Shown piece after piece: positions 58,953 through 63,947 of a stretch of DNA of 64,000 nucleotides (the stretch's first letter is position 1; the number at the start of each line of letters is the position of its first letter). Made by a program: the position numbers and the translations under genes. The stretch spans positions 91,531 to 155,530 of the IMG/VR virus record IMGVR_UViG_3300008266_000014; one strand, written 5' to 3'. The notes under the pieces are model-generated. The model saw only the letters and a program-made list of their open reading frames with translations, was not told where the DNA came from and did not search any database. Source of the DNA: a virus.

Positions 58953-58958
58953 TTGACC
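58953..58958 (+). promoter_or_regulatory. TTGACC element before the 59.1 kb gene
   Basis: TTGACC lies 28 bases after an AGTAACT motif, with TTGAAGCT downstream at the place where a -10 would be; the same TTGAAGCT follows the TTGACT at 47683. No good -10 box. Confidence 0.35.
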
Positions 58959-59075
58959 AACCACAAATAGTTTGAAGCTCCTGCACTGATCTACATGGAT
59001 GAAGTGCAGCATGAGTCGCGCGGTGAGAATCCAGTGTGTGTTGTTCCGATGGATGTTGAATAAAAGGAGATCATC

Positions 59076-59443: not shown

Positions 59444-59492
59444 GCAGAGCAACTCTGCATTTACAGCCCCAGGATGTCCTGGGGCTTTTTTT
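59444..59492 (+). terminator. Double-hairpin terminator
   Basis: GCAGAG/CTCTGC (59444-59458) is followed by GCCCCAGG/CCTGGGGC (59466-59485) and seven Ts. It closes the accessory operon. Confidence 0.85.
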
Positions 59493-59639: not shown

Positions 59640-59856
59640 AACTACTAACCTACACCTACCCTCATCTACCACATCCACTACACACCCCACAACCAACATC
59701 CCACATCAACAACTCACATCCAATCTAACATAACACCCTACATCATCTTCCCACATCCCACAACACACATCTTCACCTTATCAATCTCATAACATTATCA
59801 AACTATTAACACTATATCAAACCACATACAATTAAAACATAATCTATTAAACTATA
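59640..59856. other. 217-base G-free arm
   Basis: I read 59640-59856 base by base and find no G. The reverse strand is therefore C-free. No open frame of useful length exists on either strand. It ends at an inverted repeat where the strand bias flips. Confidence 0.9.
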
Positions 59857-59862
59857 GATTAT
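59839..59862. repeat. Perfect 9-bp inverted repeat at the strand-bias switch
   Basis: ATAATCTAT (59839-59847) and ATAGATTAT (59854-59862) flank TAAACT. The last C of the G-free side is at 59852 and the first G of the C-free side is at 59857, both inside this repeat. Confidence 0.85.
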
Positions 59863-60035
59863 TGAAATAGTAAGATATGAATTTATTAATGAGTGTTATT
59901 AAAATGTTAAGATGAAGTGGATAGAGGTGTTGTTAATAAAATGTTAAGTTTTGTGGGTAAAATGAATGAAGATTAGATAGATGTTTTTGAATAAAGTAAA
60001 ATTGGTTTTTTGTATTGGGTTGATAGAAAATTTAA

Positions 60036-60064
60036 ATGAACTTTTTATGTGGGTGTGATATGAT
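60036..60064 (+). promoter_or_regulatory. Extended -10 promoter of the C-free operon
   Basis: TGATATGAT (60056-60064) is an extended -10. A weak -35-like ATGAAC (60036-60041) lies 17 bases upstream, and its last base is the only C between 59853 and 61413. Confidence 0.5.
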
Positions 60065-60103
60065 TTGTTTGTAGTAATTAATTTTAATTAGTGGGAGAGA
60101 TAG

Positions 60104-60544
60104 ATGGAAAAGATTGAATTTAGTAAGAGTGTGAATATTAATGAAGTGGAGAGAGTTATTAAAAAAGAGTATGAGTATTTGAATAATGGTTTTGAGTTTG
60201 AAGGTGTGATTGAGTTTATGAAAAAAAATGGAAGTGGAGTTTATGAGTTAATGTTTGGTTGTAGAGGTGGAATGGAAGATATTATTAAAAATGATATGAT
60301 TAAGAGTGAGGAAGAATGTTTTAATGATTTAGTAATGGGTTGTTATAGTAGTGAAAATAGTTTGGATGAAAGTATTGAGTTATTAATGGAAGAAAGTGAT
60401 TTTGATAATGTGGAAGAATTAAAAGAGAGTGTAATGGAATATTATGGTAAGATTGAAGAGATGTTTAAAGATGAAGATGATTATGTAATGGGGTTTGGTT
60501 TTTTTGAAGAAGATGTTAGTATTTTTATTAATGTGGAGGTATAA
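60104..60544 (+). CDS. C-free gene 1: acidic protein, 146 residues
   Basis: A GGGAGAGA ribosome site precedes ATG 60104 (MEKIEFSKSVNINEVERVIK). The protein is Glu/Asp-rich and has no Ala, His, Pro, Gln or Thr, because none of their codons lacks C (Gln, His, Pro need CNN; Thr and Ala need ACN and GCN). Leu is TTA/TTG, Arg AGA/AGG and Ser AGT only. I see no family motif. An acidic, Gly-phase-like fold is possible. Frame of 441 bases without a stop despite many TNN codons argues it is real. Confidence 0.7.
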   Translation: MEKIEFSKSVNINEVERVIKKEYEYLNNGFEFEGVIEFMKKNGSGVYELMFGCRGGMEDIIKNDMIKSEEECFNDLVMGCYSSENSLDESIELLMEESDFDNVEELKESVMEYYGKIEEMFKDEDDYVMGFGFFEEDVSIFINVEV

Positions 60545-60545
60545 A

Positions 60546-60770
60546 ATGAGTAAGTATAAAATGATTAATGTTATAATGGGAAGAAATTATGATTATAATG
60601 ATAAGTTATTATATGGTAGAAGAAGTTTGAAATATTATGGATATATTAATGATGAAGATTATTTGAAAATTGTTGAAAGTTTAAGATTGATTGATTGTGT
60701 AGTAAATGTTTATAAAAAGGTAAGAAATAAAATGGATTGTTATGTAAGAATTATTGTGGAAGAGAAATAA
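60546..60770 (+). CDS. C-free gene 2: basic protein, 74 residues
   Basis: ATG 60546 (MSKYKMINVIMGRNYDYNDK) lies one base after the stop of gene 1, with GTGGAGGT as ribosome site. Unlike its neighbours it is basic (YGRRSLKYYGY; VYKKVRNKM). It has the same restricted alphabet. A nucleic-acid role is only a guess from charge. Confidence 0.65.
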   Translation: MSKYKMINVIMGRNYDYNDKLLYGRRSLKYYGYINDEDYLKIVESLRLIDCVVNVYKKVRNKMDCYVRIIVEEK

Positions 60771-60875
60771 TTTGTGAATTGATATTTGAAAATTGATAGT
60801 TATTTTTAATTAGTATTTATTTGTAGTTGATGAGAAAATGTATTTGTTGTGATTATTAATTAAAGGGGATTAAAA

Positions 60876-61136
60876 ATGAGTGGAATTGTAAAAGTTATAG
60901 ATGTTAAAGATGGTGGTTTTTTTGATAATGGTTTGGTTTATGGTAGTTTGGATAATGTTGTTTTGGAAAAAGATGGTGAGTTTATGATGTGTGAAGGTAT
61001 TTTGATTTGGGAAGATTATGATGAGGAAGAATTGAGTTATATTTGGAGTAGTTGGAAAGATTGTTTTGATAATGGTGAAGAAGGATATTTTAAATTTATT
61101 AATGGTGTTTGGGTTGAAAATTGTAAGGTTGTGTAA
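60876..61136 (+). CDS. C-free gene 3: acidic protein, 86 residues
   Basis: ATG 60876 follows AAAGGGG. The protein (MSGIVKVIDVKDGGFFDNGL) has four Trp and several Gly turns (WEDYDEEELSYIWSSWKD), suggesting a compact beta-rich fold. No Ala, His, Pro, Gln or Thr. The leader TTAAAGGGGATTAAAA is repeated before gene 4. Unknown function. Confidence 0.65.
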   Translation: MSGIVKVIDVKDGGFFDNGLVYGSLDNVVLEKDGEFMMCEGILIWEDYDEEELSYIWSSWKDCFDNGEEGYFKFINGVWVENCKVV

Positions 61137-61155
61137 TTATTAAAGGGGATTAAAA

Positions 61156-61383
61156 ATGAAAATTGAAATTGAGATTAGTGATAAGATGATTGAGAAGTTT
61201 ATTAGTAAAATGGAAATTGAAGAGAAGTTAAGTTTTAGTAAAGAGGATATTGTAAAGAAAATAAAATTAAAATTGTATGATGATTTTAGTGATGAGGATT
61301 TAGATTTATTAGATGAGATTTTGTGGGATATGTATAATAATGAATGGTTTGAATATGAATATTTGGATGAAAATGAAGAGTAA
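61156..61383 (+). CDS. C-free gene 4: acidic helical protein, 75 residues
   Basis: ATG 61156 (MKIEIEISDKMIEKFISKM) begins a very acidic, helical protein (DDFSDEDLDLLDEILWDMYN) ending DENEE. It shares the leader repeat with gene 3 and precedes the terminator. A DNA-mimic-like acidic protein is conceivable but unproven. Same restricted alphabet. Confidence 0.65.
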   Translation: MKIEIEISDKMIEKFISKMEIEEKLSFSKEDIVKKIKLKLYDDFSDEDLDLLDEILWDMYNNEWFEYEYLDENEE

Positions 61384-61405
61384 TTAAAGTTAAAAGAATT
61401 TTAAG

Positions 61406-61438
61406 AAGAGTTACATTTTTTGTAACTCTTTTTTTTAT
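61406..61438 (+). terminator. Terminator of the C-free operon
   Basis: AAGAGTTAC (61406-61414) pairs with GTAACTCTT (61422-61430), a seven-base loop, then TTTTTT. The three Cs here each pair with a G and are the only Cs from 60042 to 61536. Confidence 0.9.
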
Positions 61439-61536
61439 TTAAAATGTTAATAAAAAAATAATAGTTATATTTAGAATGGTTATATTATTTAGTGTGGTGG
61501 GGGGTAGTTTTAGAATTTATAGTTGAAATTTAGATG

Positions 61537-61690
61537 CGCCTAGTCTCCAACTCGCCTCAGACACACTCTATATCACGCAGAAAAACACGAAGAGGCCAAA
61601 ACTTCCAAATCATTTCAAAAACAAATCTCACTGAAATTTTTTTCACGCCAAAAACCGAAAAAAAGACGAAGTCAAAAACACGAAGCGGAA
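61537..61690. other. C-rich, G-poor flank without genes
   Basis: Cs reappear abruptly at 61537. Over the next 154 bases I count 42 C and 20 G. No gene is visible; A-rich runs and CACGAAG-type segments recur. It ends at the late-type box at 61696. Confidence 0.55.
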
Positions 61691-61703: not shown

Positions 61704-61731
61704 TTGATATTACTTGTTTGGATATAGAATA

Positions 61732-62097
61732 ATGAAATCCTTTTCAGCCTTTGTCCAAGAAGACATGGTTAATTACAATCACACTAATCAACAATGGCAA
61801 TTGCGTCATGATGACAAAGGTCATGGATTCAAGAGTGAGCATTCTAGAGTAATTCTGAAAGATGCAGTACCTCATGTTGATCATGATGCGCATGAGGCTG
61901 GTAAACGAGTATATGCGTACATGCATGGAACGCCAGTGAAATCAATACCAGAAAAGCACAAGAAACGAGAGATTAAGTTTAATCCAAATAACATCGATCA
62001 TCCGTTTATTCACAAGGATGATCATTCACCAGTCACTCATGCTAACTATGTAGAGTTTGATGGGCGTAATGTGTATGCTCATTACAAATCTCAATAA
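61732..62097 (+). CDS. His-rich phage protein
   Basis: ATG 61732 (MKSFSAFVQEDMVNYNHTNQ) gives 121 residues, rich in His (DDKGHGFKSEHSR; VPHVDHDAHEAGKR). The MKSFxxF start resembles the N-termini of late phage proteins that are processed in the head. His spacing could bind metal. Function unknown; late box upstream. Confidence 0.55.
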   Translation: MKSFSAFVQEDMVNYNHTNQQWQLRHDDKGHGFKSEHSRVILKDAVPHVDHDAHEAGKRVYAYMHGTPVKSIPEKHKKREIKFNPNNIDHPFIHKDDHSPVTHANYVEFDGRNVYAHYKSQ

Positions 62098-62129: not shown

Positions 62130-63947
62130 ATGTACAGATTCAAATCATTTCTTAGAGAGTATGTCGAGATCAAGGAATATCTGACTGATAAGCAGAGGGC
62201 TCGCTATTCGAGGATCAAGTTGACTCCAGAGGCCAAGAAAGCGACCGATCCTTTCTTTGGGGAGTCTGATCTTGTTCGCGAAGAGTTGCCATCGGATTAT
62301 GATCATGACAAGAGTGAAGTTCATAGAGAGGTGGAAAAGCATCTAGGAAAGGATATTTCTTCTGATGAGTATGTGAGTGGAATCACAAGGGACAAGTATG
62401 GTCGTGAGGCTCGTATTGGGAGAATGATCAAGGATAAGGGGTTGCAGGGTAAGTTTGCAAGTGATAATACAAGGGCAGGCAGCAAGGCAGGAAAGAATCA
62501 TTATGTGACGATTGTTCGTGGAACCGAGGTTGCAGGGCAGACAAACAGTGCACCGGACAAGAATCATCCAAAAGGGCATTCATGGGGTGATATGAGCTGC
62601 AAGAATGTCGACACAGGAACAAACAGAGAATATCTTGATGATGAGATTCGTCATGGATCTGTTGTGGTAAGAGTGCATGATCACAATGATCAGGAGATCT
62701 ATAGAGCGACCCTACATCCGCACGAGAATCAAAATGGAGATGTTGCCTATGCCGTGAATAGTGAATACGGAGTGAAGCATCCTTCATTTACCAATCACGC
62801 ACACGATGTTGCAAAGAGAATATCTGGAAAGCCAGATGTATCGAATGGAACAGATATGATCTATAACATTCATCCTGATGTATACAATGATAATGAGGCA
62901 GACACAATTGTACACCCAGGAGCAACAAAAGATCATCTTCATGCAATGATCGATCAGGCAGAAGACAATATTGATGATTTCTATAGAGATGACTACAAGG
63001 CAATTCTGAATCACAATCAAATTGATGACAAACATCTAAATCGTCTATACAATTTGTCAAAGAAGTTCGATATATCGGACGAGCACGATAACCATTTCAC
63101 ATCATCGGATTCAGAAAGAATCACGGCAAGACAACTAAAATCTGATTTGTTGTCTCATGAAAAGGTTCCGGAAAAAATTCTTCTAGACGCATTGAATAGC
63201 CCTGATAGAGGAACAAGAATTGATGTTGCGCTAAACAAGAATGCAACAGAAAAGGTTCTCGATACCGCATTGAGTGATGACACGGACGAAGTAAAGAGAT
63301 ATGCCGTAGAAAATCCAAATATGTCCGAAAAGCAACTATCACGTGTCTTTGATCATCCAAACGGAAGACCTCTTTTTGGTCATGTGACAAGATATGTTGC
63401 ATCAAGACATCCAAAAATCACAAGCAAACTGATTGATAAGATTCAAAATGATCCGGATGAATACGTAAGACAAGGAGTGGCATATCACAAGGCTCATGTG
63501 TTCAATTCTGATCAGATCAATAAAGCAATTAATGATACTCCAGATACCGCAATGTCGGTAATCAACGGATCATACAAACGAAACTTTGGTGGCGATACAA
63601 GAGAAATAAAAAATAGCAATTTTACCAAACAACATCTTGATGATGCAGTGAAAACAGGAAACGGTGATGTGATCACTGCAGCAATGTATCACCCTCTTGC
63701 AGAAAGAACTCATCTCGAGGCAGCAATTAATCACGAAAACTTTGCAACAAGACTCGCAGCAATCAATCACCCAGACATGACCAAAGAAGATCTTCAAAAA
63801 ATGGCTGAGCACGATCCGTCTGATTCCGTCAAAACCGAGGCAGAACGAAAACTAGGACATAGATTCGAAAAACGATACAAATTACAAAAAAGCGGAGAAT
63901 ACGATTGGCAAGAACCACCAAAAGGTGGATGGGTAGACTTTCGTTGA
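62130..63947 (+). CDS. Large repeat protein (HEAT/LRR-variant type)
   Basis: This 605-residue protein opens MYRFKSFLREYVEIKEYLTD. The first 250 residues have KNHYVTIVRGTEVAG and SWGDMSCKNVDTGTNREYLD, with no family I can name. From about 330 a helical repeat recurs: ILLDALNSPDRGTRIDVALN, VLDTALSDDTDEVKRYAVEN, then LIDKIQNDPDEYVRQGVAYH and LEAAINHENFATRLAAINHP. Such repeats occur in large phage proteins. Its own late box suggests a virion role. It is the gene next to the C-free island. Confidence 0.65.
   Translation: MYRFKSFLREYVEIKEYLTDKQRARYSRIKLTPEAKKATDPFFGESDLVREELPSDYDHDKSEVHREVEKHLGKDISSDEYVSGITRDKYGREARIGRMIKDKGLQGKFASDNTRAGSKAGKNHYVTIVRGTEVAGQTNSAPDKNHPKGHSWGDMSCKNVDTGTNREYLDDEIRHGSVVVRVHDHNDQEIYRATLHPHENQNGDVAYAVNSEYGVKHPSFTNHAHDVAKRISGKPDVSNGTDMIYNIHPDVYNDNEADTIVHPGATKDHLHAMIDQAEDNIDDFYRDDYKAILNHNQIDDKHLNRLYNLSKKFDISDEHDNHFTSSDSERITARQLKSDLLSHEKVPEKILLDALNSPDRGTRIDVALNKNATEKVLDTALSDDTDEVKRYAVENPNMSEKQLSRVFDHPNGRPLFGHVTRYVASRHPKITSKLIDKIQNDPDEYVRQGVAYHKAHVFNSDQINKAINDTPDTAMSVINGSYKRNFGGDTREIKNSNFTKQHLDDAVKTGNGDVITAAMYHPLAERTHLEAAINHENFATRLAAINHPDMTKEDLQKMAEHDPSDSVKTEAERKLGHRFEKRYKLQKSGEYDWQEPPKGGWVDFR

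Follow-up and report, generated by a model that had tools for sequence, protein, structure and literature searches.

An operon of four small genes with almost no cytosine on its coding strand was found in the window, the 64,000 b stretch of DNA analysed here, which corresponds to bases 91,531-155,530 of a 155,530 b IMG/VR contig. Together with a shorter C-free arm on the opposite strand, the block may form a divergent pair of transcription units that have lost C from their RNA by long selection on the transcript and are expressed when cytidine is unusable, a reading that is favoured here tentatively. A nearly C-free gene in a cultured phage is a second, independent case.

A C-free block with a mirror-image arm

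The block extends from 59853 to 61536 (1684 b) and its + strand is composed of A 624, G 409, T 647 and C 4. The four Cs are at positions 60041, 61414, 61426 and 61428 and the C-free runs between them and the block ends are 188, 1372 and 108 b. A base count across the whole contig found the block to be unique, the second-longest C-free run in the 155,530 b being 61 b, and the probability that 381 codons would lack any C, given the codon usage of the phage itself, is ~10^-104. The first-pass annotation had reported four Cs in 1684 bases, 1372 consecutive C-free bases and an abrupt end at 61536, and these values are reproduced by the count, with the first C to the right of the block at 61537. It had also described the effect as limited to one strand. 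The asymmetry is real within 59853-61536, but a mirror arm immediately to the left was missed.

In this left arm (59640-59856), the + strand is G-free for 217 b (the next longest G-free run in the contig is 53 b). The - strand therefore lacks C throughout the arm, and from 59853-59856 a C-free strand runs outward in each direction. The left arm includes no ORF of note and has a G content of 37% on its C-free strand. It is weakly repetitive, with degenerate GATGTGG-like, 7/13-14-nt repeats between 59682 and 59771 that may serve as binding sites on DNA or RNA. GGATGT occurs four times, which prompted the idea that the arm acts as a CsrA sponge. A 22 bp palindrome (TAATCTAT-TAAACT-ATAGATTA, 59840-59861), of which no exact copy was found elsewhere in IMG/VR, is located where the C-free character switches strand and is a putative divergent control site.

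Promoter, genes and terminator

The C-free leader or spacer on the + strand (59857-60040) includes two near-identical TGTTAWTAAAATGTTAAG repeats (at 59894 and 59931). A predicted promoter at 60036-60064 is made up of an extended -10 element, TGA-TATGAT (60056-60064), and a weak -35-like ATGAAC (3/6) at a spacing of 17 bp. It was read by eye from the sequence and is absent from the consensus-scan list. The C at 60041, the sole C ahead of the terminator, is part of the -35-like ATGAAC, and transcription would be expected from the sequence to start near 60071.

Four ORFs follow on the + strand, each preceded by a Shine-Dalgarno-like sequence, in agreement with the earlier report of four open genes with ribosome sites. 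P1 (60104-60544) predicts an acidic protein of 146 aa (39 D+E, 13 K+R), P2 (60546-60770, with its ATG at 60546) a basic protein of 74 aa (10 D+E, 15 K+R), P3 (60876-61136) an acidic protein of 86 aa and P4 (61156-61383) an acidic protein of 75 aa (25 D+E). A duplicated leader, TTAAAGGGGATTAAAAATGA, is common to P3 and P4. The operon ends in an intrinsic terminator (61403-61433, + strand) with a 13-bp stem followed by a T tract (MFE -15.4 kcal/mol, z -4.7). This stem has only three G-C pairs, compared with seven in the terminator of the upstream operon (59465-59486), and the three pairs hold Cs 61414, 61426 and 61428, which are 3' of the last stop codon. As 60041 is upstream of the predicted start and the other Cs are in the terminator, the predicted message is C-free to 30 nt past the last stop. 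Like a C-less cassette, the segment from the predicted start at ~60071 to 61413 has no C. A C-free tail continues past the terminator on the + strand (61438-61536), and C-rich DNA begins at 61537.

None of the four predicted proteins has a known relative. Nothing was found for P1-P4 in Pfam, PHROGs or PADLOC, or in the proteomes of the phage itself and related phages. P1 has no relatives among viral contigs, and P1, P3 and P4 have no tblastn matches in phages. The AF2 models have a pLDDT of 45 for P1 and 65 for P3, and the low-confidence, mostly beta P3 model had no match in a viral fold search. Searches with the DNA of the block found no matches in phages or plasmids and no match in Rfam.

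Composition of the block

The coding strand of the block has a composition of A.372, G.251 and T.376, whereas C-to-T conversion would predict A.33, G.21 and T.46, as well as ~15 stop codons in 381 codons; no ORF is broken. The first two codon positions have the composition of the phage renormalised without C, and at the third the T content of.52 equals C+T of normal genes, i.e. it resembles synonymous C-to-T change. Serine makes up 6.3% of P1-P4 and is always encoded by AGT, although AGY accounts for just 2.2% in the genome, and Ala, Pro, Thr, His and Gln are absent, with 0 observed versus 85 expected. This adaptation of codons and amino acids indicates a long adaptation to a rule of no C and not a recent conversion. 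The leader and inter-ORF DNA, 402 nt in all, is also C-free. The rule therefore acts on nucleotides, and codons, tRNAs or amino acids do not explain it.

Two known kinds of C-poor DNA were considered and rejected. Deaminase-hypermutated DNA does not fit, as the C-to-T composition and broken ORFs are both missing. Simple or tandem C-free repeats, such as heptamer arrays, do not fit the right arm, which is coding and non-repetitive, with scattered short low-score repeats and 3-nt codon periodicity only. Strand-biased deamination as a recent event, one of the causes put forward in the first-pass annotation, is disfavoured for the same reasons of composition and intact reading frames.

Distribution of C-free sequences

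C-free runs of 136-140 bases were not found in 69 viral records, nor runs of ~120 bases in 30 further viral records. P-SSM2, phage G and CP220 have runs of ~100-120 b that were attributed to AT-rich phage background: P-SSM2 and phage G have 0 genes with <5.5% C, and in CP220 the run falls in AT-rich sequence of low complexity. Among bacteria, 299 Pseudomonadota genomes have runs of 186 b or longer solely as simple or tandem repeats or in very AT-rich DNA. The 247 Bacteroidota genomes searched have runs of 164 b or longer, nearly all of which are tandem repeats or arrays or very AT-rich DNA. Four of the Bacteroidota genomes (G538, G568, G548 and G392) contain many scattered C-free tandem arrays, mostly of 7-nt units, that surfaced because the search targeted C-free DNA. 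The TTAAAGGGGATTAAAAATGA leader matched six unrelated contigs, none with C-free runs.

A survey of 13 phage records with ~2270 ORFs found <5.5% C in just five genes, P1-P4 (0%) and immuto35A_127 (1.4%). The first-pass annotation knew of no described system with this property, which is not unique to the source phage. A further stretch of 295 nt with one C (L174:12003-12297, in genome G061 contig C28) is non-coding and located behind a promoter-like box. The contig is from a phage, with portal and terminase genes, and was binned with a Sphingobacteriales MAG.

A C-depleted gene in a cultured Flavobacterium phage

The immuto35A_127 gene (68286-68642) of Flavobacterium phage vB_FspM_immuto_3-5A [accession MW353176.1] is nearly C-free and is an independent C-depleted unit. 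The gene and its leader (68254-68642) contain 5 Cs in 389 nt where ~57 are expected (P 2.5e-20), and all five precede T. A promoter-leader motif, TATATTTAGGTATCAATAATTAAAAC, recurs in 16 copies ahead of immuto_3-5A genes. The C of TATC is kept in 15 of the 16 and is replaced by T only ahead of gene 127, where the Cs further upstream, both within the -10-like box and ahead of it, are retained. As the leader C is lost but the promoter Cs are kept, the loss sets in within the leader, close to the presumed transcription start, which we place according to the Bacteroidota promoter pattern. The spacer of the gene after immuto35A_127 includes a C-containing hairpin, then T-rich sequence.

The predicted protein, with 33 D+E among its 118 residues, is an acidic orphan known only from immuto phages and shares no sequence similarity with P1. 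The unit resembles the block in encoding a small acidic orphan, in being depleted of C from leader to gene end and in keeping its promoter Cs. It differs in consisting of one gene with five Cs left, in having a Bacteroidota-type promoter and in lacking a mirror arm. The rule in immuto35A_127 is thus strong but not absolute. As the immuto phage and its host are cultured, the idea of a C-less unit is directly testable in the laboratory.

A possible natural C-less cassette

Selection for C-free mRNA had been among the causes listed in the first-pass annotation and is the one favoured here, given that ORFs and UTRs are affected alike, that the remaining Cs are outside the predicted transcript or in its terminator, and that a second phage carries a similar unit. 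Avoidance of every C irrespective of context, from promoter to terminator, is expected if C cannot enter RNA or be tolerated in it, and divergent transcripts would be expected to show a mirror-image arm without C on the opposite strand. Selection on the transcript would be equivalent to selection on a G-free template. A small early-type operon of this kind would be needed when CTP has run out, when the cell contains a chain terminator derived from CTP or when C-containing RNA is attacked. RNA polymerase would start at a promoter whose C is upstream of the start, cross the four small genes without CTP and meet the first C in the terminator stem. Early expression, a C-directed stress and a counter-defence role for P1-P4 would be in keeping with this scheme. 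The ~100 b of C-free sequence past the terminator, a left arm that encodes no protein and a host for which no system that depletes CTP or targets C was seen count against it.

T4 Alc stops transcription on cytosine-containing DNA and is a T4-family precedent for the control of template use by cytosine, although Alc, unlike the block, involves the sensing of DNA modification. Elongation can be synchronised by leaving out one NTP (PMC8969151). In the C-less and G-less cassettes used in vitro, as in the block, the transcribed strand is without one base and polymerase passes without that nucleotide. However, those cassettes are artificial and non-coding, and the block is a natural four-ORF operon with ribosome sites and a terminator. 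Prokaryotic viperin, a documented defence based on nucleotide analogues, in which ddhCTP leads to chain termination (PMC12926258), is a known defence from which C-free RNA would be spared. Some viperins also make ddhGTP or ddhUTP (PMC12926258), which C-free RNA would not escape, and this counts against a C-less cassette.

More broadly, unrelated phages may keep 'emergency' units purged of one RNA letter, which could be expressed when CTP is removed or poisoned, or RNA with C in it is attacked, by the host or the phage, and the orphan proteins may counter that state. If true, this would be a new mode of gene regulation and protection, by reduction of the nucleotide alphabet. An operon limited to 15 amino acids so that its transcript lacks one nucleotide implies a selection pressure that is apparently undescribed; we know of no earlier description, and none was found in the literature searched. 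This suggests that phage and host are in an as yet undiscovered conflict over a specific nucleotide, for instance through CTP depletion, C chain terminators, RNases directed at C or templates with modified G. Depletion of a single base starting at a promoter is a simple genome signal by which more such units could be found.

Alternative explanations

The nearest rival to a C-less cassette is a C-directed nuclease or deaminase, whereby transcripts or the displaced non-template strand resist a C-specific ribonuclease or cytidine deaminase while CTP is normal. This is a minor possibility that accounts for the avoidance of every C in UTRs and ORFs, for the base pairing of the three in-transcript Cs in the terminator stem, out of reach of a single-strand enzyme, and for the T that follows each remaining C of immuto35A_127. 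However, no enzyme of this kind was found, C is present in all other genes of the phage, and the deaminase matches in the contig are nucleotide-metabolism types (dCMP deaminase, dUTPase/dCTP deaminase-like). RNA that is free of structure or immune to Rho, having no G-C pairs and no rut site, is decidedly unlikely to have been the target of selection. The RNA of the block is the least structured in the phage (-17.7 kcal/mol per 200 nt versus -42.4, sd 7.4, elsewhere, with 0 of 250 random windows weaker), and low structure is at least a consequence of the absence of C, but neither effect requires removal of the last C, a few Cs should persist across 1372 b as the gain from each further loss shrinks, and the terminator hairpin is retained. 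A replication origin or R-loop, with two C-free strands running outward from a palindrome and the displaced strands strongly skewed to G over C, agrees with the mirror arms, the central palindrome and the G-rich, repeat-like left arm. It is nevertheless very unlikely, given that skew does not require zero C, that the right arm is a non-repetitive coding operon with 3-nt periodicity and that immuto35A_127 is a lone gene with no mirror arm. Transcription-coupled deamination of the non-template strand, removing every C each generation, would make the dependence on strand and start point natural, but is highly improbable in view of a composition that fits avoidance, ORFs that remain intact where 381 codons should hold ~15 stops, and terminator Cs that survive. 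The block is known from one metagenome contig, but an assembly or conversion artefact arising from bisulfite-like reads is scarcely credible when a comparable unit occurs in a cultured phage and the block has adapted codons and an intact layout of ribosome sites, ORFs and terminator. A conversion artefact, which the first-pass annotation had itself raised, is excluded by the composition and intact ORFs and by the left arm, where the opposite strand is affected.

The template strand, rather than the RNA, would be what matters if G in the phage DNA were widely replaced and a G-free template could be read by unmodified host RNA polymerase, which would make this the earliest operon to be expressed. 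This is unlikely, although the phage does carry relevant genes. Contig positions 71904-73788 and 84215-84913 include queE-phosphoribosyltransferase-queD and folE (with QueE-like and QueD-like matches) but no queC, a set that looks like a nucleotide-level 7-deazaguanine pathway. Synechococcus phage BUCT-ZZ01 has the same gene set, also without queC, and queE, the phosphoribosyltransferase gene and folE are annotated together in immuto_3-5A, the carrier of the second C-depleted unit, as in the source phage. Incorporation of a modified dGTP has been proposed for Campylobacter phages (PMC6884629). FolE, QueD and QueE are also encoded by the 7-deazaguanine-modified phages (Hutinet et al. 2019, PMC6884629), but the source phage differs from these in having no QueC. 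Against a G-free template, no C-free unit is present in the phosphoribosyltransferase carriers phiST, BUCT-ZZ01 and Brevundimonas phage MaInes, or in G004, a relative with queE and queD. The C-depleted unit thus occurs in two of the five phosphoribosyltransferase phages tested and, with three other carriers lacking it, the link to 7-deazaguanine is only suggestive. This modification has no known tie to strand composition, and modified phage DNA is generally readable by host polymerase.

Source phage and genomic context

The contig belongs to a T4-superfamily myovirus, with profile matches for a gp23-type head protein, sheath and T4-type DNA polymerase (phrog_138, 1e-168; phrog_23, 5e-131; phrog_262, E 0), as well as a terminase. 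The major head protein is 73% identical to that of Stenotrophomonas phage DLP_6 and 67% identical to that of Sinorhizobium phiM12. Among long relatives the closest is G004 (164 kb), which is collinear across most of the genome, but the C-free block is in the accessory part. In a related contig, L117, a tRNA-like, GC-rich stretch takes the place of the block where early genes adjoin a late promoter, as read by eye.

A frame-broken gene remnant (58956-59065) is located just left of the left neighbour gene of the block, and the gene is intact in L117 (14240-14397). Elsewhere in the contig, a 284-aa protein (contig 86317-87171) has a weak relative in phiST. To the right of the block, a late-promoter-like ATAAATATT precedes genes for two proteins (61714-62097 and 62130-63947) with MxxFxxFLRE-like N-termini, which are perhaps injected with the DNA. 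One of the pair, a 605-aa protein, shares weak similarity with proteins of Erwinia and Dickeya jumbo phages.
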